Shown one piece after another: positions 4,471-44,480 of a stretch of DNA of 64,000 nucleotides (the stretch's first letter is position 1; each line of letters begins with the position of its first letter). A program made the translations under genes and the position numbers. The notes beneath the pieces were generated by a model, which did no database searches, was not told where the DNA came from, and saw nothing but the letters and a program-made list of their open reading frames with translations. The DNA is from Candolleomyces eurysporus (lineage: Eukaryota; Basidiomycota; Agaricomycetes; Agaricales; Psathyrellaceae). The stretch spans positions 62,001 through 126,000 of the forward strand of contig JANBPK010001476.1 in assembly GCA_027579435.1 (NCBI GenBank), in the 5' to 3' direction.

Positions 4471-4520
4471 GTGGTGGACATCCTCGTAGAATCGGCGCTT
4501 CCCCGGTATCATCTCACCGT
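4471..4520 (+). pseudogene. Possible scrap of a DUF6533-type 7TM gene
   Basis: The frame here reads 'VVDILVESALP', nearly the same as 'VIAILVESALP' in a conserved helix of the intact 7TM gene at 49.6-50.8 kb. A stop codon lies just upstream in frame and nothing family-like follows, so at most this is a relic. Chance similarity is possible over so short a stretch. Confidence 0.25.
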
Positions 4521-4562
4521 GAACTTCTGTCCCAGGGATTTTCGACATCCAGAGATATCGGA

Positions 4563-4790
4563 CCAGGTAATAAGTCTGGGTTTGCTACGGGAAATTTTCC
4601 CAAAACCTGAAAGTGGAGTTCCCTGTCCTTTCCAGGTAATCGTGCTTGGGGACTACCAGTTGATTTCCACGTTAAAATCACTGGATCTCTCAATGTACTT
4701 CCAGGTTCATATACCTGGCATTACCACCGCATTTCCAGGCGTAATTACTTGGTAAATCCACAAACGATCACAGTATAATCCAGGTGATAT
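4563..4790. repeat. Degenerate tandem repeat, about 34-35 bp unit
   Basis: The motif (T)TTCCAGGT(AAT) recurs at about 4563, 4632, 4701, 4735 and 4780, with weaker TTCC copies near 4599 and 4667. This gives spacings of about 34-35 or 69 nt. Several units also carry CTTGG or CCTGG about 10 nt later, forming a small inverted repeat with CCAGG. Confidence 0.5.
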
Positions 4791-5764
4791 CCAATATAAT
4801 TTCAGGGTGGAAGAGTGGGATAGGATGTTGGTGCAGATTCGAAACGAATGGTGCGTAGTATGTAGATAGATATAGAGATGAGCTTTAGCTAGCGGAAGTC
4901 ATAAACGATGGTCGTCAAAAGCCTAAATGGGCTGGTAGATCGTCGGTAATGCATCGATAATAGGGTAAACAACAGTCCTAGTTCTTCTTGGCTCTCTTCG
5001 CAGGAGCGACAGGTTCGTCATCGAATTCCGAGATTCCTGGAGAAAGGGGTCAGGGCCTGCGAGATATCAAGAAAGGGAAGCGTACATCGTCATGACTGTC
5101 AACTCTAGGCCGCACCGCACTCCTGGTTGCCCCAAATTCAAAATCTCATGAACTAGGTCATCTTGTTGTGCCCTCTCATCCCACATAATCGCGTTCCGCG
5201 TAATGAGTGACTAACAGCTCAGAACAGTTTTTCGTGGAACGCAAGACAGTGAGGGCATATCAATATATCATGACGCTATAAACAACCCTGAACCGCTTTT
5301 TGCCGTCATATTGGAGTTCCATGGTCAACAAACGAACAGGATATTACTACAAGGATAATTGACCTCAACGAGGCGTCCGCAAGGTTCAAGAAAGGCAAAT
5401 GCGAGCTTGAGTTGCAAGCTTGCAATTTTTGGCAGGTTTTGAATCGTCACATCCCGTTGCCCGTCCGACAATTGATCTCTTGTTTGCCTGGAATTCGGAT
5501 GAGATGCGTTCCATTGTGAAGCTTGGATTTACTTAGAATATGATGCTCCACATCAGCTAGGGGTGGGACACCCGGTCCGAAAATACTCGATCTTTGCCCT
5601 TAGACCCTCCTTGCCTTGAACCTAGTAAAGAAAGTCATCATAGTAGTACTCTGCGCGGAATATTCTCGAGTTTGTAGCAGGTATATTCCGAGAAAANGGG
5701 GGGACAACATAGATATACAAGTTAACCGTAATAAGAATCATACTACTCGACAGGTTTGGCTCAT

Positions 5765-13980: not shown

Positions 13981-14850
13981 TCAAACTTTTGGAGAATTTT
14001 ACACATTTATCTTAGGGAAAAGTCTCTGCGTTCCGCGTTACAGGGCCCAAACTAGGCAAAATCGAAAGCCTGCGCTATGCGTGAGGATTACCCCCTTAAT
14101 CCGCAAATTGATTGCAAGCCCTGCAGTTCTAGAGACAAAAACCATTCACAACGCCTTCAGCCACCATGAATCGCCAGAGCCGAGTTTCCATCGTCCTGCC
14201 TCTTGTCCTAAATGCACTGAAAGAATATAACAGAGGTCTGTACTGCGACGGAATATGAAATATGAACGAGCAACACCCACTGGAACAACCTGGAAAATCA
14301 TTCGCTAAACTCGGACCTCCGAGACAGGTCGACGCTTCTGCTGCCTCGCGAATACATTTATGAATATGAGTCGATTTCACCGCGTCAAGACAAGCCTCAA
14401 TGGATTAAATCCACTCGTGCTCGTTACCTTCATCTATTGCCTAGAGTTTTCGGGGATTCGACTTCAGCGTCTTGCAAATAAGAGGACTACGCATTAGGAT
14501 GCAGGTCGTTGATTGGAGGCGGACCGAGTAAAGCAAACAAAGACATGCATCTTTAGTCAAGCTACGGGAGACTCAGACTACGCCTGTGCAGTATTCGAAC
14601 TGCACTGATGCGCCAGCCGTCTTCCTCAGAGCCAAGACCCAATTGCGAGTGCTTTGAATGGGCTCCAGGCCCCTGCTCGAAGGTGGTAACCTCCCCTGCC
14701 CTTGCCATACAGCACGACGGTCAAAGTCAGTTAAAGGGGCGGGGCCGAGCATTTTCTATTGATGCGAGAGTCAAGATCTCGGATGGGAACAAAGTTAGAT
14801 GTACATTGCGCCCCACCATATTTATTTAGAAACTTACTCAGACTGTTCTG
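13981..14850. other. Intergenic region
   Basis: Short open frames only; nothing recognised. Confidence 0.4.
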
Positions 14851-16380
14851 TGATCCTCAGTGACAGCACCCATGGGATTCTTTGACAATATGTACATCCC
14901 CACTATCTACCTCCCTCAACCCTCTGCATTGTACTATGACATCCCTCCCACTTCTTTCCTATCCCTTTCCTTCAAACACTCACCCTTCTTCTCTCACCTC
15001 AATTCAGGGCCTACATAAATGTGCGCACTTCAGGCTAATTTTACACCGATTGGGACAATTCAGTGGGGTTGAAGGAGGGTGGGGATGCAAAAATTATGTG
15101 TTCAGTTGGGTAAGAGCGGTGTTCAAGCCCTGATACTGTCCAAGTACCCCCACCACCAGCACCACCATGACATCCTTGGTGACAAGATTGTTCAGCACAT
15201 GAACGTAAGCGGAGAATCATCCTGGTGGAGAGGATAGCATGGATGGATGTTTCCGGTCTAAAAGACACATTAGTTTTCCAAACTCAAGAGAGGAATGGCC
15301 TTATCATATGGTAAGTGGTGAGAACTTACTGCACAAGGAGAGTACTCAATGCTTTGTTCTAGAAGACATGACAGTGAATTAGTGGCTGAACAAGTACAAG
15401 AGTCAGGTAGTAAGTGCAAACCTTGACTGTGAGAAGAAAGATGAGGTTTGCACAAGCCAAACCTAGTACAAAGCACACACTCAGGGCTGCTTTTTGGGGA
15501 GAAGATTAGCTGAGGGACTCACCAGACAAACATACAAAATAGACAAGTCCATCCTGATAAAAGGCAGACACCAAAGTTGAGGTCCTGAGATGTCTATGCC
15601 TCCAAAATGTAATGTACAACATGCAAAGCATAACAACTGTAGCAGTGTAATCAGTTGGAATTGTCAGATAGCTTGGAGAACATAGGGCTAAGCACAGACC
15701 AGTGATACTGCACAACAAGAGCAAGAAGCCAAAACCCAGGAGGGTAAGGTTTGCTTCCTCTGGTATACAAATAAGGTTATGAATTGGAAGTTCCATGACT
15801 GTCACCAAGGGAGCTATAGTCAGCTTGCTGTTGCTGGGATCAGCCATCCATGTGTTCAACATACATTTAATGCTTTCTATGGATCGCGGGATAATGTAGA
15901 AGTTGGGAGCATGAAGGCCCTGTGTTATTTGGATGAGAATGGCACTTCCTCTCACAAAACAGATACTGGTTGAGACTGACCACAAATTGCAAAATGAGGA
16001 ATGCAAGCAGTCTTCTGTCTCTTCCAGAGAAGGCATATGCTCGGATAACCAAAATGACTGAGGGCATTAAAAAGGCATGGATTGGTAGCTATTGGGAAAT
16101 ATGACATACCCTCAGATGCAATGATTGTGACACTTGCCAATACTTTTAAAGTTTGGCAAATGGAATGATTTTGTCAAGATGCCAGTGAGTAATTACCTTG
16201 CAAAACTGAAAGACAGACCTACTTCCATTGCGAACAAATGCAGAATGACATTGTCCAGCTGAGAGATTGGTTGGTGTACTGACCGCTGCTGGGTCACCAC
16301 TGAGTGGGGTAGGCCTGAGAATGTAAGAATATACATACCTGTCAAAAAGAACACCCCATGAATGAGGATGTAGTAGCGAA
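14851..16380. repeat. CpG-depleted segment covering a 7TM gene
   Basis: CpG is nearly absent here: none that I can find from 15301 to 15840, and about five from 15301 to 16320. Neighbouring DNA on both sides carries several per 60 bases. TG and CA are frequent. This is the footprint expected of methylated cytosines mutating to thymine over a once-repeated or silenced sequence. The segment coincides with most of the 7TM gene at 15041-16806. Confidence 0.65.
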
Positions 16381-16806
16381 TTCCAAAGAACAGAACTTTT
16401 GGCAGGCTCATCGGCGCTTTCCACATTAATCGAACCTGTTAATAGGCTTAAATTCAATGCTGAAGGCATGGCTATGGGTGTAATGCCATACCTCATCCGG
16501 GAATGTGTGCAAGAAGTCAGCAATCTAGCCAGCATTTCAGTTGGTAATTGTGATTTATACAGATTTCAAAGTTCAACTTACCACAACAGTGAAGCTGCTC
16601 ACTGCCTAGTTCCAAGCAGCATTAGGAGTCAAGGTTGAGGTGGAGATGGAACAATTGATCCCAACACGCACAAGATACTGTTGTAGTGGTTTCATTCCAA
16701 TCATTCACGAAAAATCCGGGTAGAGGAGACTCACGTTCCCATATTGAGTTGAAGTGTACGCTTGAACGATAGCATCGTAGCTGACTCCATCCGGCAGTGT
16801 GGTCAT
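15041..16806 (-). CDS. DUF6533-type 7TM membrane protein (possibly decaying)
   Basis: About ten short exons. The first four are clear: 16735-16806 ('MTTLPDGVSYDAIVQAY'), 16582-16605, 16492-16524 ('ADFLHTFPDEV') and 16339-16435 ('RLMWKAPMSLPKVLFF'). Later exons read 'VILVIRAYAFSGRDRRLL', 'MLYITFWRHRHLRTSTLVS', 'DGLVYFVCL' and, near the C-terminus, 'HAILSTRMILRLRS', in the order normal for this family: F.DE...W, a charged loop after TM3, 'H.R.S.LV....RDG', then 'TR..L.LR'. Function is unknown; these are integral membrane proteins expanded in mushrooms. Middle exons around 15950-16330 are hard to join and may be damaged, since the whole gene lies in CpG-depleted DNA. I am sure of the family and not of intactness. 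Confidence 0.6.
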
Positions 16807-28346: not shown

Positions 28347-29327
28347 ATGTCCACCCCGGCGAGTTACCTCCCGCTCGCCGAACAGGATTTCCCTTCAGAA
28401 CATGCAGCACTTGCCCAAGCCTTCCACACGAGGGCGACCTGGCTCTGGACTCACGAGGATGAGCCGTATCAACCTCCTTATGCGCCACCTGGAGCAGAGA
28501 GGGGCTTTCGTTGGACCTATACCAGCACACTACCATCGAGGACGCCTTCAAGTATCACGATTATCATTTCCGTGGACAATTACTTTGCCCTGCACGTAAA
28601 CGGCGCCCTCGTCCATGCTGTCAATTCAAGGGACGAGTTTTGGGATGCGTTTGCATTTACGGTACCCATTGCGGCTGGTTCTACTAAGACGGTAATTGCT
28701 GTCAGAGGCTTTAACGCTGACGACACGACAGCAGTTCTGAACAACCCCGCAGGCTTCACAGCCGCCATCAAATTCTCGTTTCAGGGAACCACGGAGACGG
28801 AAACGTTTGTCACAGGACCTAATATGCAGTGGGTCGGGGAGAGTAGCTTGCCTGCAGGATGGGAGGACCCAGACTTCAACGATTCCAGTTGGCCAAACGT
28901 GGTGGTGTACCCTATCGAGCACGTAGGCTCGTATTGGCTGCCGGAGTACCGACGGGGTCCATCCAAACTTTTTGTTGGGAGCAGTATCACAGGAGGTACG
29001 ACCACGACAACAGCAACTCGGACGTCAACGCTAGTTGTGACTTCGAGCTCATCGAGTCTTACGACTACCTCTACCACTCTTTCACAGCTCTCAACCTCCA
29101 ACACACTGAGTCCTACCTCTACCTCTTCCACTCCCGACATCCCTTTACCTCAAGATCCAACTCTAGGTCAAGGATCGACGAGTGCGACGGGCGTCGGGTC
29201 TTCGAACAACATCTCCAATAGTAGCGGTAGTATGGGGATAGGTCCACCTCCATTCATGACTGGGATTATCGTGGGTTTTATTTTGCTCTTCACTTTGTGG
29301 CCGCGGTCTATCCGACGTATTTTTTAG
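28347..29327 (+). CDS. Galactose-binding-like membrane-anchored protein A1 (short-tail form), 326 aa
   Basis: One open exon. The first about 220 residues look like a beta-sandwich of the galactose-binding type: 'ERGFRWTYTSTLPS', 'SVDNYFALHVNGALVH', 'AFAFTVPI', 'TVIAVRGFN', 'NPAGFTAAIKFSF', then 'WVGESSLPAGWEDPDFNDSSW'. The 'DNYFALHVNG' and 'FNDSSW' motifs are typical of carbohydrate-binding jelly rolls. A Ser/Thr-rich linker of about 80 residues leads to a C-terminal hydrophobic helix ('GIIVGFILLFTLW') and a short basic end. No signal peptide is visible at the chosen ATG, which is odd for a domain usually found outside the cell; a missed 5' exon or tail-anchoring would explain it. It is paralogous to A3 (same form) and to A2/A4. 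Confidence 0.8.
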   Translation: MSTPASYLPLAEQDFPSEHAALAQAFHTRATWLWTHEDEPYQPPYAPPGAERGFRWTYTSTLPSRTPSSITIIISVDNYFALHVNGALVHAVNSRDEFWDAFAFTVPIAAGSTKTVIAVRGFNADDTTAVLNNPAGFTAAIKFSFQGTTETETFVTGPNMQWVGESSLPAGWEDPDFNDSSWPNVVVYPIEHVGSYWLPEYRRGPSKLFVGSSITGGTTTTTATRTSTLVVTSSSSSLTTTSTTLSQLSTSNTLSPTSTSSTPDIPLPQDPTLGQGSTSATGVGSSNNISNSSGSMGIGPPPFMTGIIVGFILLFTLWPRSIRRIF

Positions 29328-29587
29328 TATGTTAGTATAGCTTAATTATTTACCTGCCGGTGTTCTCTCAGCATCGTCCTCTCACTGTTACCCACTGTCT
29401 TTACAATGTCTGTATCGATACTAGAGATTTTGCCAACTATCTACCTTCTTTCCGCCGAGTTGGAGTCTTGTGCCAGGTGGACGTGGTAATTGTCGAGCAT
29501 ACTCGGAGCTACAAGGTGAGGATTCATACAGATACCGTCACTACTATACGTCCTAGATTCTGACCCCCAATCCCGCTTGACAGTAAA

Positions 29588-30235
29588 AACATTTTCCTAG
29601 AGCCCGAAAGGCACATAGGGCGCCCAATCAACAAAGATTACGCCGTATCTCCAAGCTTCCGGCGTATTCCCTGTGTGATGGCGTGGTGACGAGCCTCCAC
29701 CGCTTCTGTTCGTCGAACACTGGAACACCAATTACGGCGGAACATTTGAGAAGGTGATCGTAAATTCTTTCGGCGATCGCAGATGCGTATCTATCCTGAA
29801 TCGACCACATTGTCCCCACCACTTCCCTATACCCAGCGTCTAACATTCCAGGAGCTAGATGCACGTTTTTCCTTGGAGAGCTTCTCCTCGCCTGAGCTCG
29901 TCTGACAGGCCGAAAGTCTGCGAAGATCATATTTGCTTGGAGGATTTTGAAGAGTTCGAGGCGGCCGTAGTGGAGGTGGAATCCGCTTCTCAAGGGCTCT
30001 TTGGCGCCCTGCGTTGCGTGACACGCGAGGTGGACACAGGTGAATTTGCCCATGTTGGATATGCCCGCCTCCATCGTGGCCACGGTGTTCGTTTCGCCTT
30101 CCAATGGAAAGGTTGGGAATTCTCTCTTGGCTAGCTGGGTCTTGATCGCTTGGACTTCGCAAGAGCCTATTCCCACTCTTGCGCAAGATTGACGTGCGAA
30201 ACTACGTCGTCTTGCAAGAAGATTCTCTGTTCCGT
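29588..30235 (-). pseudogene. Broken 3' part of a CHAT-domain gene
   Basis: Aligns with the end of the intact CHAT gene: 'VATMEAGISNMGKFTCVHLACHA', the 'GTMWSIQDRYAS' region and the C-terminal end. It carries at least two frameshifts (one destroys the 'ACQTS' catalytic Cys region) and an internal deletion of about 0.77 kb. Near 30155 the sequence jumps from the equivalent of about 33371 to that of about 34137 in the intact gene. Everything upstream (TPR part) is missing. It is therefore non-functional as a protease. Confidence 0.85.
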
Positions 30236-30860
30236 GCATGGATCGCTTGCTTTCACATGCTAACTCGATAGCAAACCGCCTATGTGACGGTTCTACAGAT
30301 CGTGTACCATCGCCACATACTCACTTCCGGAGTTCTCAATCCCGAACTTTCGCTTACTCTCGTATAGTGAACATTGCGCAGAGCGCGAATCACCCACTCT
30401 CATTTGACTACGCCCTGGTAAAGCTGCACGCGGCCAAATCAACTTCTAGATTTCCTAATTACGACTCTTTGACCTGGCGTCCAGCTAGACTTTGCAACGA
30501 CGACCATAGGCATAGTACTGGGTATATTGGCATACATTATAGCAATTTTTGTAATATATTCTCGCAAGCGGAGTGCACAAGCCTTCATCATTCATTAGTT
30601 TGCGAAATATGGACGGAAATTGGGACGCCCCGTATGGTCGAAGAACACCAGAGGCGAGCTTCCTTGTACTCTGCTTGCTGCTTTTGTTTCTCACGACTGA
30701 GACGGGTATCCTATGTTTTTGTTTCAGACGTAGAACAGCAATTGAACAAGTTTAAGGAGACCATCATTGATATCAGAAGACCCTCTTACGGCAGCTCTAG
30801 CACTACGGCAGCTCTAGCACAGACTGGTCGTGACCTTGATTTGATGGCTTTTCGGTAAAG
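30236..30860 (+). pseudogene. Broken 3' part of surface-protein gene B
   Basis: Matches the intact gene B from about 40200 to 40790: 'HPLSFDYALVKL' against 'RPLSFDYALMKL', the transmembrane-coding stretch (now frameshifted) and the start of the last exon, 'DVEQQLNKFKETIIDIRRPSYGSSS'. The first module and most of the second are absent and several frame changes occur, so it is a relic. It directly abuts the broken CHAT copy. Confidence 0.8.
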
Positions 30861-31046
30861 TTATAAGTCTACCCGTGTTTCTCACATTGTTATCTCCAGA
30901 GACACTTAGTTATTCTTCTCTTCCTCTTCTTCAGTAGCTTTGGAGAGCTGGGGTCATCCTAAAGCTCAATATCAACGTCCAGGCATACTGTGAGTGCGAC
31001 CACAATATATCTTTGCACTCGTTCTCCGTTGATGGTCTGAATAGCG

Positions 31047-32192
31047 ATGAGCGGAAGTCGCGCAACCTATCTGCCTCTCACTGAGCAAACGTTCCCGCCG
31101 GAACATTTATCACTGCTTGAGGCCTACCAGAGCAGATCGTCCTGGATATGGACAGCTGAGGGGGCTCCCTATACGGCTCCAAACTCAACTTCTGGAGAGC
31201 AGCGAGGGTTTCGATTCACTTACCTCCACAATGACCCAACAAGAAGACCGTCCAACGCGACGATTGTCCTTACCGTTGACAATTATTTCGCGCTCTACAT
31301 CAACGGTGCTGTTGTTCACGAAGCCGATCCAAGAAACGATTTCTTCACCGCGCTAGCATTTTCGGTCCCCTTGCAACCCCTCAGAAACAAGACGGTGTTC
31401 GCTGTCAGAGCAATCAATGGCAAGCAAGCGTCCTACACAGAAAACCCGGCGGGACTCATCACCGCTCTCAAGATTAACTTTCAGGATAGTGGAGAGAGCG
31501 AAGTGTTCGTCTCTGGCCCTGGTATGAAGTGGGTCGGAGAATCTCTATTGGCTCCTGGATGGGAGGAGACGGATTTCGATGACGCCAGCTGGCAGGATGC
31601 AGTCGTCTATCCCTCCGCAATTTCCAATACTGTCTGGCCTCCTGAACAACGTCGTTCACCAGTCAAAATTGCGGTCGGGACCACACTCACATCTCCTCAG
31701 CCGACAGTCTCGAACTCGATAGTGGGCCCGGGTTCCGATGGCAACTTGCAACCTGGCGCCTGGGCAGGGATCGTTGTGGGCGCAGCTCTGCTTGCAGCAG
31801 CACTCGCTGCTATTTCAACGTTTTTCTTCATCCGCCGCCGATACCAGCCCAAGCAGAGAGAAAGAATCGCATCGCTAAGTTATGTCGCATACACACCCAT
31901 TCCTCCTACGACCCAAACCACTCCTTACCCCATCAGTCACGTCCATCAAGAGCAAGTACGCAGCTTCACCCCGGGCCCAGGGGTAACAGAGCAAAGCGAC
32001 TGTCCTCCGGTCCACATGGGAAGTGCTTTTGAACCAGGAAGTGGTTTATCTACCAGCGAGCGCAGCTCCGAACACCCCCCCTGGACCACGATCTCAAGTA
32101 CACCATGCGTCGGTTCACAAGTCGAGTATGCTAGACAGTGGTCCGACCAATCGGCAATACTTGGACCTTCCACTGCAGCTCATCAACCTTGA
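31047..32192 (+). CDS. Galactose-binding-like transmembrane protein A2 (long-tail form), 381 aa
   Basis: Same fold as A1: 'RGFRFTYLHNDPT', 'TVDNYFALYINGAVVHEADP', 'ALAFSVPL', 'TVFAVRAING', 'NPAGLITALKINF', 'WVGESLLAPGWEETDFDDASW'. A single transmembrane helix ('AGIVVGAALLAAALAAI') is followed by 'RRRYQPK' and about 115 residues of Pro/Ser-rich tail. The positive charges after the helix suggest a cytoplasmic tail and hence an outside ligand-binding domain, yet no signal peptide is seen at this ATG. Compared with A4, a small net two-base loss in a C run near 32065 shifts the frame of the last about 45 residues. The A4-like tail ('QVHHASVHKSSM') is preserved in another frame, so A2's C-terminus is altered or misassembled. 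Confidence 0.78.
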   Translation: MSGSRATYLPLTEQTFPPEHLSLLEAYQSRSSWIWTAEGAPYTAPNSTSGEQRGFRFTYLHNDPTRRPSNATIVLTVDNYFALYINGAVVHEADPRNDFFTALAFSVPLQPLRNKTVFAVRAINGKQASYTENPAGLITALKINFQDSGESEVFVSGPGMKWVGESLLAPGWEETDFDDASWQDAVVYPSAISNTVWPPEQRRSPVKIAVGTTLTSPQPTVSNSIVGPGSDGNLQPGAWAGIVVGAALLAAALAAISTFFFIRRRYQPKQRERIASLSYVAYTPIPPTTQTTPYPISHVHQEQVRSFTPGPGVTEQSDCPPVHMGSAFEPGSGLSTSERSSEHPPWTTISSTPCVGSQVEYARQWSDQSAILGPSTAAHQP

Positions 32193-32239
32193 CGTAATAT
32201 GCCATGAGCATGAACTTTGTGTACACAAGGGTTTTTCCG

Positions 32240-32833
32240 TAACAACTACCTCTACCACTCTCTCACAACTCTCAACCTCAAACACACTAAGTCCTACCTC
32301 TTCCACTCTCAAAATTCCTCTACCCTCAAAGATCCCACTCTTCTCCCAAGGATCAAAAAATGTGACAGGCATCAGGTCTTCAAGAAACACCTCTGAGAGT
32401 AATGGTACTATTAGGTTGTGTTCACCTCTATTCATGGCTGGGATTATTGTAGGTTTTATTTTGCTCCTTGCTTTGTGGCTGTAGTCTATCTGACATATTT
32501 ATATGTCAATTAGTATAGCTTCATTCTTTACTTGCTGATGTTCTTGCAATGTGCCCTCTTTTCACTCTTTACAACATCTGTCTTTATACTTGAGATTTTG
32601 CCAACTATTTACCTTCTTTTCCCATAGTTGGAGTCTTGTGCAAGGCAGGCATGGTGATTGTCAATCACTGGAATATTTACAAGGCATTTTGAGAGGTCAT
32701 TGGCTGTAAGGTAAGGATTCATGTATATACACTGCCACTATGTCCTTGATTCTAACCCCCAGTATTGCTGGACAGTAAAAATGTTTCTCTAGAGTCCAAA
32801 GTGCACATAAGGCACCCAAACCAACAAAGATTG
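32240..32833 (+). pseudogene. CpG-free relic of the 3' end of a short-form A gene plus its downstream DNA
   Basis: The sequence aligns base for base with 29060-29640 (end of A1, its 3' flank and the end of the broken CHAT copy). It contains no CpG over 594 bp, where the twin has about 28 by my count. Most lost CpGs are now TG or CA: GCGTCGGGTCTTCG became CATCAGGTCTTCA, CCGCGGTCTATCCGACG became CTGTAGTCTATCTGACA. The reading frame 'FMAGIIVGFILLLALWL' of the A tail is still visible but the 5' part of the gene is missing. Confidence 0.88.
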
Positions 32834-35800
32834 CGCCGTATCTCCGAGCTTCCGGCGTATTCCTTGTGTGATGGCGTGGTGAAGAGCCTCCGCTGCGTAC
32901 TGTCCGTCGATATCTGGAACACCAATCACGGCGGAACGTTTCAGAAGGTGGTCGTAAAAGCTTTCTGCAATCTCAGATGCATATCTATCCTGAATCGACC
33001 ACATTGTCCCCACCACTCCCCTATACCCAGCGGCTAACATTCCAGCAGCGAGATGCACGGCCTCCTCCGAGAGCTTCTCATCGCCTGCACTCGTCTGACA
33101 GGCCGAAAGGAACGCCAAATCTGCGAAAGTCAGATTTGCTTGGACAATTTTCGATAGCTCGAGGCGACCGTCGTGGAGGTGGAATCCGCTTTTCAGGGGC
33201 TCTTTGGCATCCTGCATCGCATGACATGCGAGGTGGACGCAGGTGAATTTGCTCATATTAGATATACCTGCATCTACCGTGGCCACGGTGTTCGTTTCGC
33301 CTCCCAATGTAGAGGTTGGGAGTTCTCTCTTGGACAGCTGGGTCTTGATCGCTTCGACTTCTGCCTTTGCTCCCGGGATCGCCGCGAGTCCCGGTGCATT
33401 ATGTTCGCTGATGAGAAGCATACCGCGTGTGCATTTCGTCGGCGCTGCTTCGCTTGCGACTCTTGGTATCGAGAGCGGAGAAGAATCGACTTTGACCTTC
33501 AGGCGTTCCAGAAGGGATGACAGCGTCGGGATGTACGAGGAGATGACATAGTCGCAGATACTGACAGGGTTTGAACCACTGTAGATTCCAGCTGCATGCA
33601 GAGGAAGAAATGAAAGGGAGCCCGTCGGACACCACCACACCCTTTGTTCTGGAACTTGTTCCTTCGAGATCTTTGGAAAGTCAGCCCATCTGCTCCCTTC
33701 ATGATTCGTCGACTGCATTTGGAACTCACTTTGAGAGACAAACTTTCCACAATGGGTTTAACAACTCTAGTCCAGAGCTGCTTCAAGACGTATTCCAGCA
33801 TGCTCGCACTTCTCCCTGTTTGGCGCGTTGGGCGGATACCCCTGTCTCCAGACTCGTCGTTGTCTCCGGTACTTTCATCGTACCCTCGCAAACGAACCCC
33901 TTCCGCAACGAGGCTACGTTGTAAATTGGCTCTCCATTCTTCTACCATGGCCTCTGAAACGTTTGGGAGCTTGACGTGCAAGGGCCACGTCGCACCAGGT
34001 TGCAGAATCAGGGCATCGCATCGAGTTTGATGTACGTTGATGACAATGACGGCTGCGGAAGGTGGAATGAGATTGAACCACTCCTCGACCGGCGGTGGTC
34101 TCAAGAAATCTTCGAATCCATCAATAGCTCGAACTTCCGCAAGAGCTTCCTCCCACTCTTGCGCAAGATTTACGTGTGAAACTACGTCGTCTTGCAAAAG
34201 GATTCTCTGTTCTGCGGAGTCAAGTCCCGGCGCTGATTCGAGGTTGGTTTTCCGCGCTCCCATGCTTTCCAACAATGGTGAAAGTCGGGCTAATCGATCA
34301 GCAAGACTGGGATCTACGCTTCGAATCGAATCCATGGGCGTTCGAAGGCTATTGAGCTGGGTCCAAACGAGGCAGCGTCCTTGTTCAAGCCACTCCATAG
34401 CCAACTGTGGGACCCCAAGTTCGACTGCCGTTGCCGCCGCTTCCAAGGTGATGTTTGATATCGAAGCGAGGGCCGAGTGTCGACTTTCTATCGTTTGTTC
34501 GAGGCCACCAACGACAGCGATGAGTTTGATGCAGACTTTGTAACCGTACAAACACATTCCCTGATCGAATCCTCTTGTCAAATGCGCCAACCTCTTCGCG
34601 ATGAGAATGCGCAATCGTGGAGGTATCCCTTGATGTGTGACGACCTCTTGCATGTTTGACGCTGCTTGCCTTCCATATCTAACATCCCCGGAACGATGGT
34701 AATGCCTTTCCTGGGCATTTGCAAGGTTGCTGAGGATATCAAAGCGTAAATCAGCCTGGGGAGAGTTGGCGGGTAGTATCTTCAGGGCGCGTTGAAGAGT
34801 AGTGATCGATTCTTCCAAGTGTTCGATCTCTCCTGTATGACGATAAAGGTAGTGAAGGGACGTTCCTAAGTTGTTCAATGGTCGGAGGAGCGATGTGGAT
34901 TCGTTGGATAGGAGGGAAATTGCTTCGCGACGGAGCGATATGGCTTCTTGAATCTCGTCAAGGCACTCTGACACCCTGTATTTGGCATGAAAGACGTTCC
35001 CGAGGCTATCGACGATGTCTGACAGCATAGCAGGATCTTTTCCAACGAATTCGAGAGTCCTTGCCGTCTGTAGTATGGCAATAGCTCGATCGAAATCAGA
35101 CAACTGACGTGTCAGTTCCGCACGAGTTCTGAGCGAAAGACTCAAATTCAATAAGCGTTTTGGGCGCTGGGGATGATCAATTGGTGTACCACGGACTGCT
35201 CCTTCATGGTTTCTGATCGCTTCCTCTAAATCCGACCTATCCTTCGTCCTGCCAAAGCGAGAAAGGAACGAGTTGCCTAAGCCTGTGAGGTGACGGGGGT
35301 AGTCTGCATGATCGAGGGGTGTCATTCCAACGACCTTCTGCTGAGCGCTGATAGCTTCCTGGATATCAGAAAGATCCCCATGACGATCGAATCGAAGACG
35401 AAGGGAGACGCCAAGGTTATTGAGTCGAGTGGAAAGGCCGCCGTTCTGACGGAGTACCGCTACACTGAGACCGGATTCGGCGACGGGGGAAAGGAGCTCG
35501 ATTGATTCTTTGAGATATTCAATCGAGAAGAGAATATTGAGGGGATCATCGTTGTATATGAATCGAGCCTGATGGACCACACCGAGAGCGAGGTACTGGG
35601 ATGAACGTTCCAAACGATTGGATTCTGGGGTCAACTTTCTTGCTTTCTCGAGCTGCTTCAAGGCCTCATCGAGATCTTCGATGCTTCTTGTCAGGTCTGC
35701 TCTGCTCTTCAAAGTGTTGGCGAAGTTGGTGAGCCTCTGCCGAAGTTGGGGATCCGTCTGAGAGGTCAACGGCTACCCCTCTCCTGTGGTTTTCAGCAGC

Positions 35801-37882
35801 TTCGTCAATGTCAGATGCTCTACCGGTTCGCTGGAACTTTTGGTGGAGGGCATTGGCAAGGCCCGCAATCCAGCTCGAGAGATCATTGGATTTCTCTTTG
35901 GATTCCTCGATCCGGACCATACGCCTTCGCATTGTGATTACACGTTCGATGACTTCCAGGTCTCCGCTTGTATCGTATTGCCGTTGGAGCGCGACACAAA
36001 GACCATTAAGAATAAAAGGTAGGTTGCGATCGGTCTCCGGTATGAGTGATACTGCCTCCTCGTGGACGGCTATGGCTTCGTGAAGGTCGGAGATTAGACG
36101 TGTGCGTTGATAGCGACGTTGAAGGGCAAACCCAAGGGTGATCATGCGTGACGGGAGAATCAGGCGTCCATCACCGTCCTTTTCGTCCTTGCTGGTGAAG
36201 CTGACAGACGACTGAGATACGGACACGGCCTCTTCTATATCGGCAAGGTCGCCAAACACCTCGTTCTTGCTGTTTAGGCAGAGGGAAATTTCGTGAAGGC
36301 GTTGAGCTCGGGCAGAGATCTCGCTGTCGGGAGTCAATGAGGCTGCCTTCCTTGCTAAGGTGATCGCTTCCTCGATAAGCGGTGCGTTTTGAGAGAGTTC
36401 GAATAGAAGTCGCAGCGATTGGGCTAAGCTCAAGAGATACTGGGGAGATGTAGGGATAAGCTCTACCGCGTTCCGGTGGGATAGAACAGCCTGTTCGAGG
36501 TCGGATATATCTTGTGAGTACTGAAAGCGATGATGGAGCCATCTTCCAAATGTTTCAAAGCGCTCAGGAAGGGAGGCGTCGTCGTTGGAGGACTTTATGT
36601 GGTCGATCACGCCCTGTTGAGCCACAAGGGCTTTAAAGATGTGATCCTTCGCCCTTGTTGTCAAAAAGCGGCGGTCACAATATGAGGAGAAATTTTTGAG
36701 GCGGGGGAGGGTTTTAGGACTGTTCGGAGGGGTAAAATCCAGAGAACGTTGTTGGAATGATATGGCTTCTTCAAGATCTTCAAGTCTCTCGGTAGTCTTG
36801 AATTTGAGGTGGCAACCATATGCAACTGATTGTAGCGCAGTCGAAAGATCGTTCGAGTGCTGTCGCTTTCCTTCTATCTCCTCCACCGTCTTCACGGCCA
36901 GTTTCTTGAACTTGATTGATTCCTCGATGTCCAATAATTCGTGGAGCCGTTCGAATCTTCGCTGGTAAGCCAAGCCCGCCTTCGATAACCAGTAGCGTCG
37001 TTCTGGGTGGTCAGACTTGCTGAGATCTATGGCGCGATGCTGGTTTGCAATGGCCTCGTGAAGATCATCAAGATCATTGAGAGACTCGAATCGGCGGAGA
37101 AGAGCGCTTCCCAGGTTGCTGCAGATTGTTGGTAGGTTTCCGTGGCAAGCTGGGGTCAGCTCCACAGCTGCCTCCAGGTTGGCTACTGCTTCCTCGATAT
37201 CTTCGATCTCCTGAGAGATATCAAACCGGTTTTGAAGGGCGTTTGAAAGGTTGTTCAGTCTCGCCGGTCGGCGGTCAGCGTCTATAATCGGGGTGATGTC
37301 GACCGCCTTCCTCAGCGCCTCTATGACCTCGTCGAGATCCGATGAATCGCCAGTCGCCTCGAAGCATTGAGTAAGAAAATCCCCAAGCTTGCTGAGGCGC
37401 TCAGCCAGATCTGATTTATTGGCATCTGAAATGGGGTTACTGTCCTCCATTACCATGTCAATGCTCGTCTCTATGGAGAATATGGCTTGACGAAGATCAG
37501 AGATATCTTTGGTGTGCGTGAAGCGGCGGGAGAATAGTGTTCCCAGATTGGCATATCTCGCCTGAACATCACCCTCGGAGCAAGAAACTGCTTTCTGTTC
37601 CAGCTCAATAGCTCCATCGATTTCGAGGAGAACCGGAGAGAGCTTTTCGGAGGGAGCATAGACCAAAGATAAACGAAGGGTAATCCACAGAGTTGTCGAT
37701 TCAACAACTGGCGTCGCTGGCGAGATCCGCTGTGTGATGGCTAGTAACTCAATCAGTCCGACAAAGGGCCTACACAAAACGCAGCACAACATACTTTCCA
37801 CCGGACCCATATCCTGATTTTTCAATTCATCTCCAGGAACAGCAACAAAACCAAGTTCTCCGTAAGCCCTACAAGAAGCCAC
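32789..37882 (-). CDS. TPR-CHAT protein, putative caspase-like protease, about 1,680 aa
   Basis: Two main exons, 33730-37882 and 32789-33670, joined in phase across a GTGAGT...AAAG intron. The first about 1,250 residues are tetratricopeptide-like repeats of about 40-45 residues ('LNNLGVSLRLRF', 'SDLEEAIRNHEGAV'). The last about 300 residues are a CHAT domain: 'RVWWCPTGSLSFLPLHAAG', catalytic His in 'TCVHLACHA' (about 33230) and catalytic Cys in 'LSACQTSAGDEK' (about 33100). CHAT is a caspase-fold peptidase domain usually coupled to TPRs, and bacterial relatives act in abortive defence. The frame breaks once near 35765 (one base too many or two too few), with no plausible intron there, so either one gene with an error or a true lesion. 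The N-terminal start is uncertain; the first in-frame ATG reads 'MGPVESMLCC' and an upstream exon is likely. Confidence 0.85.
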
Positions 37883-39301
37883 AATCTCGAGATCACTATT
37901 GTTGAGCGCCCTGTTATTGAGATGGCTCAGTGGCAGAAAACTATACGATTTTGGTTCGCCATGATACGCACATTGAGAGGCTTTGCGGGCTATTCCACTT
38001 GCTACCCGTCTCTCTTTCTAGTGAGACATGTCGCTCGTCCCCTTCTTGACGAACGTATATATTCAGAGCGGCGACGTCTGAAAAGGTATTGGGACCACCG
38101 CCGTCACTGGCTTCCTCATTTGCAATCGCCTCGACGGATATCTCTGATATGATGCGCTTCAGAAGTGCGACAGTTCAAATCTTTACCACTGCTACTCACT
38201 TGTTATCTTCTGGAACATACTGGTTCGCAATGATCGACTCCAGGCTGTTGGAAAGCGACTAATAAGCGGCGGTGTTATCGATCAATCGAATCAGATTGGA
38301 TCAGCCCAGGCTGATACCATCAGAGCCAATTGTCCGGCCTTGAGTACAAGAATTTGGAAATCGTTGCGTTATCCGCACGAGCAAGCCTGAGCCCTGTCGT
38401 GTTTGCGTAAAAATGAGGCTATATGCAGGGGGTTAAATAGCTAAGGTGATAGTTCCGTGGGCCTCCTCAAGAAGGGCCGGTTTCCATTCCGGATTTCACT
38501 TTACTCTAAACCTAGCGAACGAGCAAGGGTCAATCGAATGTGTTGATCATTTCCAATACTGCAGCGGCGGTATCATATACCATTTGGACCCCAAAATCAT
38601 GCAGACACGAAGTACGATTCACGCAATGAATCCACGGAGATCACAGACCCAGCCCATTAGACAAAGACGATGCCTTGGAGAAATCGCTTTCAAAGTTCAC
38701 GAGGAACAAAGAAATTGACGCAGGCCCTACGGAATTCCAACGGGTAGCGAACAAGCAGGTCGAGGCCACAAGTGGCATTGAGCCCACAAAATGTACACAA
38801 GACCAGGTGATTTGGCTTACGACGTTCAGCCCACTCTGCGTACAAAAAGGAGGTTATTCAGCCTATAACAGGGCCCAGGCGTACAGATAGGTCGACACAA
38901 CGAACGGTTGACGTCAAAGCCAAGGCAAGGGAAATAGCATGAACGTGGGAACCTGGCGAGGATGCCGGAACTGGTATTTGCTCGTGCTGTGCTCCGGCCT
39001 AGCTGTGCCTACTGATCGTTTTTTCGGCACCGTAATACTATTACTAATACAAGGCTGCCCAATCATGGGGCTAAGAAAGGTACGCATGGGCCCACAATTA
39101 ACGGCACTTGAGCTTATCCATTGAGTCCTGTAGTGACGCCAGCGAAGCTGACGACCACCATCCAGCCTCATCCTCATCGAACCTTGTTCTTCATTCGGCA
39201 GGAGTGATGCGACGTGTCAAGGAATGTCGGTTTTTAAGTTTTTAAGGATAGGTCCTTGTTCTGCATCTGAGGGTAGCATATCTGGTTGGCTCCAGAAATG
39301 A
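37883..39301. other. Intergenic region, divergent promoters of CHAT and B
   Basis: Lies between the 5' ends of the minus-strand CHAT gene and the plus-strand B gene. It holds only short frames. An upstream exon of CHAT may lie in the first 150 bases. Confidence 0.4.
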
Positions 39302-41287
39302 ATGATCGTACCTACCGTGCCATCCCGGATTCTTTCGTCGTCTTGCACTCTCTCTATCCTTCCCTGGGCGGTCGTTCTCGTTGCTCTATGCACTAACATG
39401 TCAGAGAATCTTCGGCTCTGGATAGACGACACCTCAGCTTCCTTTTACTCGGTTGGAATGTCGATTTGGGTTATGGAGCAGGAGGATGGCTGGATGGGAC
39501 GTTCCCATACGATCCTCACCCTTGCGGACGGCCAGGACCCGGCCAAAAATTTCAGGAGATCAGGTTCTATCTTGCTAACATTCTTTGGTGCGTCGTTGCT
39601 CCTCCACGCATTACGCTGAAATTGACAGACTGCAGGTACTAGAATATCCATGTTCGGTCTGACCCCCCGTCTTAACGATTCCCGCACCTTTTTGGCCTCA
39701 ATAGACGACTCTCCGACCACAAGGCACGACCTCCCTCTTTCCCTGCCACATCCATTCCACGAATGGTATATATCACCAGAGCTCACAAGCGGTTGGCATT
39801 CACTCGAATTGAGTGCCCTTCCCGTAGACATCTCGTTCGACTATGCAGTTAGCCGAGCATCCTCAGACTCCCTCAGTCGTAGCCCCATACCTAACGCACC
39901 TCCAGACGTTGTCGTTTTCGATGACACTGACTTGGACGTTGTTGAGTACCATGGATCATGGTCAGTAAGCCAGGAACTACCCGCGCTGAACCCAGCTCAG
40001 GACCTCGGCAGTGTGGCATTTGGGGGGGGGATACCACCACAGCTGTTCCCCCGGAGCTTCATTCAGTCTATCTTTCAACGGTATTTCCCTGTCGCGCATA
40101 ACTCGAGTACCTCCCGTCTTACTGATATCGTCTCAGGTGACACCATCTCGCTTTTCGGAATCCTCGAGCCTGAGGGATCACTTGTTTTCACCTCCCAAAT
40201 CGATGGCAAACCGCCCATGTCGTGGTCATACAACTCGTCTACCATCGCCACACACTCGCTTCCTCAGTTCTCGGTCCCAAACTTTCGGTTCCTCTCGTAC
40301 AGCGACCTTTCACCTGCAAAACACACTTTGGTGGTGAACATTACGCAGTGCGCGAATCGCCCACTCTCATTTGATTACGCCCTGATGAAGCTGTCAACGG
40401 GGGCGGTCAAATCAACTATATTTCCCAATTACGATTCCTCGACCTCGCACCCAACTGCATTTCCTGCAACGAAGATCGTAGGCGTAGTGCTGGGTGTATT
40501 GGTATGCATCATAGCAATTTTTGTAATTCATTATCGGAAGCGGAGTCCCCAAGCCTTCACCATTCATTGGTTTGCGAAATTTGGACGGAAATTCAGACGC
40601 CAACAACAGTCAAGAAATACCAGAGGAGGTGAGCTTCCTTTTGGTCTGCTTACTGCTTTTGTCTATCACGATTGAGACGGTATCTCTTTTTTTGTCTCAG
40701 ACGTAGAACAGCAGTCAAATAGGTTTCGTGAGACCATCCTTGATATTCGAAGACCTTCGTACAGCAGCTCTAGACCACCAGAACGACAGGCAGAGTACCA
40801 GCCGAGCAGCGGGACATTGCCAAATGATCTCGCACCGTCAATCCGTACTGCCCTTGTTTCACCACATCATCGCAACAAATCGAGTCAGCCCACGAGCAGA
40901 GTCCGTCAAAAACGATGTCGGACAACGAATCGGAGCGCAACACGGCGTTCCCCAGAGATTACACCCTCCAATCATGGGCACAGTTGCCCACCCAGCCCCA
41001 AATCGAGGCAGTTGGCTTCACAGTTTCCAGTGGTAGACGCATTGGTGCCTCCAGAACATGGCGAATCCTCGTCCGTTGAAGGTAAAGAGGCTCGACCGAG
41101 AAGACGCTCTGCACCAGATACAGACCTTCCAATTCAAGTCCTACGGTCTGATAGCAACACTGGCAGGGATGACCCCGACATTCAGGTCGTCGAATTGCAT
41201 GGGATTGTTCATGGGCCCGTAGAGCAGAGTAGTCGTCTCCCAGCAGTTACCAATGGTAATCTTCCTCCCTACCACGACTTGGCGTGA
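39302..41287 (+). CDS. Two-module surface protein B with one transmembrane helix, 602 aa
   Basis: Four exons: 39302-39587, 39636-40080, 40137-40628 and 40701-41287. A hydrophobic N-terminus ('LPWAVVLVALC') acts as signal peptide. Two beta-sandwich modules follow, of the type frequent in mushroom cell-surface proteins: 'LRLWIDDTSASF' to 'GTRISMFGLTPRL' to 'ISFDYAVSRA', then 'VVFDDTDLDVVEYHGSWSV' to 'SLFGILEPEGSLVF' to 'LSFDYALMKL'. A transmembrane helix ('IVGVVLGVLVCIIAIFV') precedes a basic, Pro/Ser-rich tail of about 240 residues. A run of nine G at 40022-40030 breaks the frame. With eight G the protein reads 'AFGGGYHHSCSPGASFSLSFNG' as the family expects and the exons total 603 codons. This is a probable homopolymer error. 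Ligand and role are unknown. Confidence 0.8.
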
Positions 41288-41933
41288 AACCCTAAAGGTC
41301 CGGCAACGGGCAATAGTAAAGCCCTTGCGATCCTCCTATGTTATGTCGCAAGCATCATGAACCTTGTGCTATTATTATGACATAATATGATCCACAGTAA
41401 TGTACTTGAGATAATGCCTAACTAATAGTGGCACTCAATTTTGGGGAATGGCAGTTTTGTGGAATTCGACGGTGAAAAAGAATACTATAAAAGTGATCCT
41501 TTTGGATCTGAGTATTGCTAGAGCCACATAGACGAACAATACCTCTTTTCCAGACTGCTATCTGGCAGGGGAGTATGAATGGAAGGGTGGAGGAACTTCA
41601 GGTGCTTTCAAGCAAGCGGATCTCACGTCCCCGAAAGCTTGGGAACGCTTCACTATTCGCAAAACTGCTCTTCCGCCAAATTGTGCACCACTATTGGACT
41701 GTTGTTGCTCGACATCAAGATCAAGATCATTGAAGGAACATCTCGACAACCGAGTTCATTGATTTGATGGGAAAGCCCCGGGAGTATTGCTTTCTTATGC
41801 TTGACGACCCAGAGATCTTCTTTCCCACCTTTCTTTACCCCCCACTATCCTTCATTCGCTCAGGTATTCCTTGCAAAGCTATTTGTCTATCGCCTACTAA
41901 CTGCGCATAACGTAGTTAATCCTTGGGTGTACG
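41288..41933. other. Intergenic region between B and A3
   Basis: A/T-rich 3' flank of B and leader of A3; nothing else recognised. Confidence 0.4.
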
Positions 41934-42842
41934 ATGGCGACCACTCAAGCGACTTACCTCCCGCTAGTCGAGCAGGACTTTCCTTCAGAGCATGCAGCTC
42001 TCGCCCAAGCCTTCCAGACGAGGGCATCATGGGCTTGGACTCGGGAAGGTCTCGAGTTTGAACCTCCGAACGCCCCATCTGGAGAGCAAAGAGGTTTCCG
42101 TTGGACCTATACCAGCACACTCCCGACGAGAACGCCTTCAAGTCTCACAATCATCCTCTCCGTGGACAACTACTTTGCACTACACGTAAACGGTGCCCTT
42201 GTCCATGCCACCGACCCCGAGAACGAGCTATGGGATGCATTCGCTTTCACAGTGCCTGTTGCGGCTGGATCCAACAAGACAGTAGTTGCTGTTAGAGGCA
42301 TCAACGCCGAGGACACTACAGTCGCCACTCGAAACCCTGCGGGATTCACAGCTGCTATCAAAGTTTCGTATCAGGGAACAACGGACACAGAAACGTTTAT
42401 CACAGGGCCGGATATGAAGTGGGTTGGAGAGAGTCTTTTACCCTTAGGGTGGGAAGCACCGGAATTCAACGATGCCAACTGGCCGAACGTGGTGGTGTTC
42501 CCTTCCCAGCTCGCAAGCTCAATTTGGTTACCGGAGAGGCGGAGGGGTCCGTCCAAACTCCTTGTCGGGAGTAGTATTGCCGGAGGCGCGAATTCATCAA
42601 CCTCAGCACCCCCTTCGACTTCGACCACGGCGAGTCTTACCTCTGTCACCCCTGCGATCGGCACAACTCCGACGCTAACTCAAGCTCGCTCAACGACGAC
42701 TGTGATAGTGGCCCCTTCAGATAACGTCTTCAATAATAGTGGTGGCGTCTCTTTGGCACCAGCGCCAGGTATGACTGGGATTCTTCTGGGTTTTATCCTG
42801 CTATTTACTTTGTGGCCCCGGTCCATCCGACATATCTTTTAA
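41934..42842 (+). CDS. Galactose-binding-like membrane-anchored protein A3 (short-tail form), 302 aa
   Basis: Single exon. Very close to A1 through the domain: 'YLPLVEQDFPSEHAALAQAF', 'RGFRWTYTSTLPTRTPSS', 'SVDNYFALHVNGALVH', 'WVGESLLPLGWEAPEFNDANW'. It also matches at the C-terminal helix ('GILLGFILLFTLWPRSIRHIF'). The Ser/Thr linker between them differs in length and sequence, as expected for a fast-evolving stalk. No signal peptide is evident. Promoter-proximal DNA upstream also resembles that of A1 ('CATCCCCCACTTTCCTTCAT'-like leader). Intact frame throughout. Confidence 0.8.
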   Translation: MATTQATYLPLVEQDFPSEHAALAQAFQTRASWAWTREGLEFEPPNAPSGEQRGFRWTYTSTLPTRTPSSLTIILSVDNYFALHVNGALVHATDPENELWDAFAFTVPVAAGSNKTVVAVRGINAEDTTVATRNPAGFTAAIKVSYQGTTDTETFITGPDMKWVGESLLPLGWEAPEFNDANWPNVVVFPSQLASSIWLPERRRGPSKLLVGSSIAGGANSSTSAPPSTSTTASLTSVTPAIGTTPTLTQARSTTTVIVAPSDNVFNNSGGVSLAPAPGMTGILLGFILLFTLWPRSIRHIF

Positions 42843-43382
42843 TTTATCATAACGTTGGCATGGTCTCCCGAACGGACTTATCGCCTATTCTTTTGAGTTA
42901 AGATGTCGTCCTCTCCTTTGTGTCTACTGTCTTTACAAATGTGTGTATCGATTATCGATCCAGGATACCAGATTATTTAGCTTTTTTTTCGTATGACTAT
43001 GTAGGGATAGGGTTGCTCTCCTCTGAGAGGAATGGCTTGAAGTAATTAACTTGGTAGGGGTCGGCCTCGTGCTTTGGTCGCGACGACTACATTCTGATGT
43101 TTCCCGAGAGATGATTATCATCATATGCCCAGACTCCTTGTGTTGTGACTTCAACTGAGATGATCACCAGGCAATGTTCTGATGGTATCTCGGTGCAATT
43201 ATACGTCAACGTGTGTTCCGCCCTATTCTCCCTAGGTGCTCACTTGTTCTCCTTCTCATCCTCTTCAGTAACTATTGAAACTTCGAGTTGACCTCAGGTT
43301 CTTTACCAACGTCCAGGCATATTGTGAGTGTTATCAGAATTTCTCTTTGCTCGATCGTTCTCCGCTGATGGTCTGGGCAGAC
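42843..43382. other. Intergenic region between A3 and A4
   Basis: The second half resembles the leader of A2 (for example CCAACGTCCAGGCATA), so the promoter was duplicated together with the gene. Confidence 0.5.
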
Positions 43383-44480
43383 ATGAGCTCAAGCCGCGCA
43401 ACCTATCAGCCTCTCACTGAGCAAACGTTCCCGCAGGAGCATCTACCGCTGATTGAGGCCTACCAGAGCAGAGCGTCCTGGATATGGACAACGGAGGTCG
43501 ATCCCTATACGGCTCCAAATGCGCCCTCTGGAGAGCAGCGAGGGTTTCGATTCACTTACCTCCACAATGATCCAACAAAAACACCTTCCAATGCGACCAT
43601 TCTTCTTGCTGTCGACAACTATTTTGCGCTCTATATCAACGGGGCTATCGTTCACGAAGCTGACCCACGAAACGATCTCTTCGCCGCTCTAGCCTTTTCC
43701 GTCCCCTTACCAATCCCCAGCAACAAGACAGTGTTCGCTGTCAGAGCAATCAATGGCAGGAACGCACCCGACACACAAAACCCGGCGGGACTCATCACCG
43801 CTCTCAAGATCAACTTTCAGGGGAATGCAGGGAGCGAGGTGTTCGTCTCTGGCCCAGATATGAAGTGGGTCGGGGAATCTCTATTGGCTCCTGGATGGGC
43901 GGAGACGGATTTCGACGACGGTAGCTGGCAGACCGCAGTCGTTTACCCCTCCACGATTGCAAATGTACCCTGGCCGCCTGGTCAACGTCGTTCACCACTC
44001 ACAGTCGCGGTCGGAGCCAAACTCCCAGTCTCGAGCTCGGCAGTAGGCCCTGGTTCCGACGGCAACTTGCAACCTGGCGCCTGGGCAGGGATCGTCGTGG
44101 GCGTGGCTCTGCTTGCAGCAGCGCTCGCTGCCATCGCAACGTTTTTCCTCACCCGCCGCCGATACCAGCCCAAGAAGAGAAACAGCACCGCATCCTCAAG
44201 TTATGTTGCATATGCATCAGTTCCCCCTCCGATACAAACCACTCCTTATCCCCTCAGTCACGTCCATCAGGAGCAAGTGAACAGCTTCACCCCGGGTCCA
44301 GAGGTAGGAGAGCGAGGCGACTATCCTCCGGCCTATATGGGAAGTGAAAATGCAACAGGAAGCGCTGTATCTACCGCTGGGCGCAGCTCTGAACAGTACC
44401 CCCCTGGACCACGATATCAAGTACACCATGCGTCGGTTCACAAGTCGAGTATATCGGGCAGTGGTCTGACCAATCGGTGA
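43383..44480 (+). CDS. Galactose-binding-like transmembrane protein A4 (long-tail form), 365 aa
   Basis: The start at 'MSSSRATYQPLTEQTFPQEH' is chosen because A2 begins at the same place; the open frame extends 36 codons further upstream. Domain motifs as in A2 ('AVDNYFALYINGAIVHEADP', 'TVFAVRAING', 'WVGESLLAPGWAETDFDDGSW'), then 'AGIVVGVALLAAALAAIAT' as membrane helix, 'RRRYQPKKR' and a tail of about 110 residues. The tail ends 'PGPRYQVHHASVHKSSIS'. It is the intact counterpart of A2 and shows what A2's tail looked like before the frame change. Confidence 0.82.
   Translation: MSSSRATYQPLTEQTFPQEHLPLIEAYQSRASWIWTTEVDPYTAPNAPSGEQRGFRFTYLHNDPTKTPSNATILLAVDNYFALYINGAIVHEADPRNDLFAALAFSVPLPIPSNKTVFAVRAINGRNAPDTQNPAGLITALKINFQGNAGSEVFVSGPDMKWVGESLLAPGWAETDFDDGSWQTAVVYPSTIANVPWPPGQRRSPLTVAVGAKLPVSSSAVGPGSDGNLQPGAWAGIVVGVALLAAALAAIATFFLTRRRYQPKKRNSTASSSYVAYASVPPPIQTTPYPLSHVHQEQVNSFTPGPEVGERGDYPPAYMGSENATGSAVSTAGRSSEQYPPGPRYQVHHASVHKSSISGSGLTNR

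Follow-up and report, generated by a model that had tools for sequence, protein, structure and literature searches.

The 64,000-bp stretch of Candolleomyces eurysporus DNA analysed here (hereafter, the window; bases 62001-126000 of the 131,221-bp contig C464, in an assembly of 65.85 Mb and 1,296 contigs) carries two copies of one sequence, of which one has no CpG dinucleotide and the other has many, raising the question of what stripped the one copy and why the loss stops at the end of a neighbouring gene. The CpG-free block spans 594 bp (32240-32833), and the nearest flanking CpGs begin at 32238 and 32834; its twin (29060-29640) contains 28 CpGs, with a CpG observed/expected ratio (o/e) of 0.89. 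Across the whole window, CpG o/e is 0.93, against which the count of 0 in the block stands out. An initial annotation had asserted that the two blocks align, and they do, over 560 columns with 75.0% identity, 97 transitions, and 43 transversions; its CpG counts for the two, none and about 28, were likewise correct. Below, copy B denotes 32242-32788 and copy A 29061-29640, both on the plus strand. The duplication extends rightward beyond the block (29641-30156 and 32834-33359), for 515 further columns with 87.0% identity, 41 transitions, and 26 transversions.

Copy A consists of the last part of gene P1 together with the spacer that follows it. P1 (28347-29327, plus strand) is an intact open frame of 326 aa, with a C-terminal segment judged hydrophobic by eye and no Pfam family at E 0.01, and its 3′ end lies inside copy A. 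Copy B comprises a P1-like 3′ end, without the remainder of the gene, and downstream DNA, and is located between P2 (31047-32192, plus strand), a 381-aa paralogue of P1, and a convergent CHAT open frame (32789-33718, minus strand) that covers CHAT profile positions 17-288 of 289. Homology between the copies starts at 32242, 50 bp beyond the P2 stop, and the reading frame of B ends earlier than that of A, at a former CpG altered on both bases (29304 in A; TA in B at 32482). A TPR open frame (33499-35769, minus strand) lies upstream of the CHAT frame, to which it is probably joined through an intron. To the right of copy A lies a CHAT gene fragment (29628-30239, minus strand) with a partial CHAT domain, indels relative to copy B, and retained CpGs. 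P1, P2, and the paralogues P1′ (41934-42842, plus strand) and P2′ (43275) form a local cluster at 28347-44480. A search with the P1 protein returned six proteins, and the four of these labelled with an organism come from Candolleomyces aberdarensis and C. efflorescens; the C. aberdarensis relatives show 62% identity over all of P1 and 93% identity over 59% of P1.

The CpG loss in copy B is complete and specific. None of the 28 CpGs of A reads CG in B: 12 read CA, 8 read TG, 1 reads TA, 6 read another dinucleotide, and 1 falls in a gap. The dinucleotides kept from A to B number 0/27 for CpG and 322/525 for all others (Fisher 2e-11); the corresponding numbers in the right flank are 27/38 and 363/473, and block and right flank differ sharply in the CpGs kept (Fisher 8e-10). 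These P values are conditional, the block having been chosen for being CpG-free, but correction for some hundreds of windows would leave the verdict the same. Transitions at CpG sites are correspondingly concentrated in the block (24/54, versus 8/76 in the right flank; Fisher 2e-5), and copy A and both CHAT pieces have normal CpG. The losses fall on both strands, as CA and TG, which matches the prediction of symmetric methylation. A scar of 5-methylcytosine deamination would be expected to look like this, with CpG loss far exceeding the loss of other dinucleotides and leading mainly to TpG or CpA on both strands.

Changes of other classes are also more frequent on the left: non-CpG transitions number 73/506 in the block and 33/439 in the right flank (Fisher 9e-4), and transversions are only mildly higher (43/560 versus 26/515; Fisher 0.08). 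Divergence is thus somewhat greater in the left half for every class of change, with CpG still standing out; the greater general divergence is perhaps due merely to weaker constraint. The initial annotation had described the differences as largely CG to TG or CA, which overstates the matter: 33 of the 140 differing columns lie at CpG bases of A (24 transitions, 9 transversions) and 107 lie elsewhere. It had also staked its reading on CpG changes being the more frequent per site and on the loss not running evenly into the CHAT coding region, and both expectations hold.

P1′, with its adjoining downstream DNA, provides a partial outgroup for distinguishing losses in B from gains in A. P1′ aligns here by BLAST in two short stretches only (42771-42841 and 42906-42952), in which four of the seven A CpGs (29304, 29313, 29375, and 29416) are also CG in P1′. 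In B these four sites read TA, TG, GC, and TT, respectively, none of them CG and two of them (GC and TT) not simple transitions. At the other three (29270, 29302, and 29316) P1′ has no CG, and the last of them reads CA in P1′ as well as in B. In the remaining, less reliable part of the three-way alignment, P1′ shares the A CpGs at 29176, 29179, and 29358, and carries the letters of B at 29185, 29203, and 29225. The agreement of P1′ with A at several sites supports several losses in B, and the sites that are not CG in P1′ or bear the letters of B indicate that a few CpGs of A may be gains; site by site, the polarity suggested by these alignments is weak. In the CHAT tail, the CHAT gene on contig C983 matches B, and not A, at the last two CpGs of A (29605 and 29621), so these are probably gains in A at positions where B probably never had a CpG, and the loss in B ends before CHAT. 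With these two sites set aside, the loss in B relative to A spans 32243 to 32766, and on the left it sets in at the breakpoint of the duplication (homology from 32242, last CpG at 32238).

Copy A is probably not untouched. Reciprocal CA and TG swaps, the mark of CpG loss on opposite strands in two copies, number 6 between A and B, versus 1.9 in column shuffles (18/2000 shuffles reach 6). The corresponding numbers are 0 versus 0.43 in the right flank, 3 versus 1.7 between P1 and P1′ (483/2000 reach 3), and 2 versus 0.5 upstream of P2 and P2′ (170/2000). The term "unmutated twin" in the initial annotation is therefore probably too strong.

We consider it likely, from the sequence evidence, that copy B is a silent gene fragment scarred by long-lasting CpG methylation, in which deamination of 5-methylcytosine ran to exhaustion. 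In this sequence of events, the 3′ end of a P1-like gene would have broken off and been orphaned between P2 and the convergent CHAT gene; the orphan would have become a stable, heritable, CpG-methylated (silenced) patch; and long-term deamination would have converted its CpGs to TpG or CpA, down to none. Copy A, which belongs to an intact gene as its end, would have been largely unmethylated, as would the CHAT gene on the far side of B, and both would have retained their CpGs. The agent of loss would thus be 5-methylcytosine, the methylation may have been aimed at B because B is a silent paralogous fragment, and the edge of the loss would correspond to the border of the methylated domain.

The edge beside copy B is real and sharp. 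Only 23 bp separate the last lost CpG (32766) from the CHAT stop (32789-32791), and beyond it A and B first have a CpG in common at 32834. To separate mutagen from selection, we counted CpGs that straddle two codons (positions 3 and 1), most losses of which are silent: the CHAT frame has 29, versus 29.4 expected, and codons −50 to −15 have 7, versus 5.2 expected, so that these CpGs match expectation to within about 15 codons of the stop. Protein-level selection thus appears not to be what preserved the CHAT CpGs, and the mutagen seems not to have acted inside CHAT. The CHAT fragment beside copy A has indels and yet keeps its CpGs (27/38, with 363/473 for other dinucleotides), which indicates that relaxed constraint alone does not strip CpGs.

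The sharp edge is nevertheless not a general rule. Among 20 CHAT downstream flanks, taken by hand down the list of 87 CHAT matches and not at random, two have a 300-bp window (step 50) with o/e below 0.4 and 18 have none. On contig C1243, the CpG-poor zone begins about 335 bp past the CHAT stop and ends about 1.5 kb past it (6 CpGs in 1.15 kb); on contig C1137, the CpG-poor zone covers an open CHAT stretch and reaches about 290 bp beyond the stop. Three CpG-poor tracts were examined beside CHAT genes, and two of them (those on C1243 and C1137) therefore do not end at the stop; we rejected a CpG-poor spacer as a constant feature of CHAT 3′ ends, given its presence in only 2/20 flanks with the edge at the stop in neither. 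The open CHAT frame on C1137 (L080, C1137:72932-73738) itself has 3 CpGs in 813 bp; together with the CpG-poor methyltransferase locus described below, it shows that open frames can be stripped, and we rejected the sparing of coding sequence as a rule on the basis of these two loci. Part of the flank of this C1137 CHAT stretch has a 99% copy at C1137:145526-146150. The initial annotation was thus right about the abrupt stop at this gene; a rule for live genes does not follow from it.

The genome encodes domains of the kind that the methylation reading calls for. Matches to PF00145 over the cut-off, predicting cytosine-5 DNA methyltransferases, are present on contigs C1035, C986, and C1114, and a small one is present on C1096. 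The C986 locus has an SNF2 piece downstream of the PF00145 match, the C1035 locus has a PF00145 piece at 4450-4977 and a BAH-like piece, below the Pfam cut-off, at 5822-6478 (coordinates in L023), and the scanned piece of the C1096 locus matched SRP68 on the other strand. The DNMT1-like locus on C1035 is CpG-poor over the BAH-like piece (o/e 0.09-0.42 in 250-bp windows, L023 4751-6500), and a DNA search found no second copy of it, which implies that duplication is not a necessary trigger. The methyltransferase gene is apparently itself scarred. Coprinopsis cinerea belongs to the Psathyrellaceae, the same family as Candolleomyces. A review tabulates for C. cinerea two DNMT1/Masc2 genes, one DNMT5, and one DNMT2, and locates fungal methylation in transposable elements and repeats rather than in gene bodies (PMC7862722).

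Copy B is not unique: the genome holds further scars of this type. Even within the window, the block (596 bp) does not have the longest CpG gap; that one runs from 15254 to 15885, with CpG starts 631 bp apart. This gap lies in a second CpG-stripped paralogue copy (15034-16700, strand unassigned; CpG-poor zone about 14801-16700) with long homologues on C1164, C64, C62, and C1226. Relative to three paralogues, this tract keeps 6 of the 30 CpGs common to all three, versus 676/843 for other dinucleotides (Fisher 7e-12); as controls, each of the three paralogues compared with the other two keeps 30/38, 30/44, and 30/45 CpGs. The unit from which the tract was copied is gene-sized and multicopy, and is clustered on C1164 and C64. 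A 186-aa open piece of the tract matched no Pfam family; it may resemble DUF6533, a likeness that the Pfam scan does not support. A third CpG-poor zone, at about 62901-63600, is 70% similar to C1047:2204-2622, where CpG is moderately low (o/e 0.65-0.69).

Transposon-related loci show the same division. Of 20 reverse-transcriptase (RVT_1) loci, picked by hand down the list of 137 matches and not at random, 7 have o/e of 0.00-0.36 (one having no CpG in 900 bp) and 13 have o/e of 0.59-1.21, so that CpG depletion as predicted for a 5-methylcytosine-deamination scar extends to part of the transposon-related loci of this genome. CpG-poor RVT_1 loci do not correspond simply to broken frames: 3/7 poor loci (L038, L039, and L054) have no stop in the match, and 3/13 normal loci (L046, L050, and L051) contain stops. 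Scanned in 500-bp steps of analysis, the window has o/e below 0.4 in 8/255 such 500-bp windows, and 13 further stretches have it in 5/487; of these stretches, only three (L027-L029) were chosen independently of a gene or of contig C464; the sampled genome thus appears mostly CpG-normal with sharp CpG-poor islands. The transitions at CpG sites in the block, the second, polarised tract, the methyltransferase domains, and the CpG-poor RVT_1 loci together make methylation-linked CpG mutation at block B a well-supported reading of the sequence.

The initial annotation had left open whether such mutation was RIP-like or simple deamination, and this bears on the first alternative: that duplicated DNA was recognised in the sexual cycle and its CpGs were mutated directly, within a few generations, by RIP or a RIP-like, homology-guided hypermutation. 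Pairwise RIP is expected to affect the two copies alike, along all of their paired length. The left edge at the duplication breakpoint, the exhaustion of B (0/27), and the excess of CA and TG swaps, by which A may also have been hit, all fit such a process; against it, copy A keeps an o/e of 0.89, and across the right 515 columns CpGs are retained in A and B alike (27/38 of those of A). The Neurospora-type bias of CpA to TpA, with raised TpA, does not appear: TpA has a frequency of 0.069 in B, versus 0.074 in A and 0.042 in the window, and the TpA/ApT ratio is 0.93 in B, 1.19 in A, and 0.68 in the window, so that B is not raised over A. TpA at this level and the sparing of one twin both argue against RIP, as does the CpG-poor DNMT locus on C1035, which has no DNA-similar second copy. 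In favour of the alternative, CpG-biased hypermutation is described for Tricholoma matsutake (PMC6980582) and, in genes as well as repeats, for Rhizoctonia solani (PMC4014442); against it, a further source reports, for the basidiomycetes studied there, that RID and Masc1 homologues are lacking (PMC5073141). We regard this alternative as unlikely. Of the two processes named in the annotation, the CpG-linked loss they share stands, and RIP in the strict form is not supported.

A second alternative is gene conversion, by which the CHAT half would have been recently homogenised, leaving the left half as an older, neutrally CpG-decayed remnant. The step in identity from 75.0% to 87.0% and the roughly twofold excess of non-CpG transitions on the left speak for it. 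However, age alone is not CpG-selective, the right flank keeps CpGs at about the rate of other dinucleotides, and transversions differ little between the halves. Gene conversion might sharpen the edge, yet it supplies no CpG-specific mutation, and as an account of the block we judge it quite improbable. Chance or composition, an AT-rich spacer that is CpG-poor without methylation, agrees with the GC content of 0.40 in B and 0.47 in A, but we rejected it as exceedingly improbable, given that about 22 CpGs are expected in 594 bp at the GC content of B and an o/e of 0.93, that CpGs were lost far in excess of other dinucleotides, and that 18 of the 20 sampled CHAT flanks lack such a tract. As a DNA query, the block retrieves itself, copy A, and a 37-bp match to a CHAT tail on C983 (in a search that skips very common words), and, with no further matches, membership of a high-copy repeat was also rejected.

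Methylation-driven decay of copy B thus remains the reading that we prefer, and the pair provides a good internal control for it: one locus and one family, with one copy exhausted and the other not, and with a decayed CHAT fragment next to them, which speaks against relaxed constraint as the sole cause. CpG-free paralogues of this kind could flag past methylation in fungi without methylomes, and suggest that it is carried by low-copy gene duplicates and not by transposons alone. A bolder proposal can be framed, in which Psathyrellaceae, without RID or Masc1, would direct CpG methylation by paralogy to one member of a low-copy, dispersed family and mutate it to exhaustion, from the duplication breakpoint to within tens of bases of a convergent stop, with some gene ends acting as insulators of the heritable methylated patch; we hold this to be rather doubtful.

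The process itself is already known, methylation or CpG hypermutation of this sort having been published for other Agaricomycetes; in a literature search of limited extent, we found no earlier report of the copy B locus. Three known systems invite comparison. RIP in Neurospora crassa and CpG-biased, RIP-like mutation in basidiomycetes resemble the present case in C-to-T changes in a duplicate and in a left edge at the breakpoint; they differ in that the context here is CpG and not CpA, TpA is not raised over the twin, and one copy is spared, and in that RID is reported absent from basidiomycetes in the account cited (PMC5073141). MIP methylates both copies along a duplication. The likeness to MIP in Ascobolus immersus, and to the MIP-like methylation in Coprinus cinereus, lies in the methylation of duplicated DNA without a transposon; the scar here is mainly on one copy and on only part of the duplication, and, as read from CpG loss only, its left edge fits confinement to the duplicated stretch and its right edge does not. 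For the C. cinerea system, de novo, MIP-like methylation of duplicated DNA without known Masc1 is described in the cited account (PMC5073141, which gives Freedman and Pukkila 1993 for the Coprinus work), and 5hmC is reported in transposable elements and in non-expressed multicopy paralogous genes (PMC8889193). In C. cinerea and Laccaria bicolor, CpG methylation affects transposons and multicopy paralogues that are silent, with deamination of 5-methylcytosine; this system is similar to the present case in the CpG-specific, both-strand loss in duplicated or transposon DNA and in leaving most of the sampled genome unaffected, and C. cinerea is of the same family. Known here from sequence scars alone, the present tract differs from that system in being a low-copy gene fragment, in being fully exhausted, and in having a CpG-rich twin 3.2 kb away.
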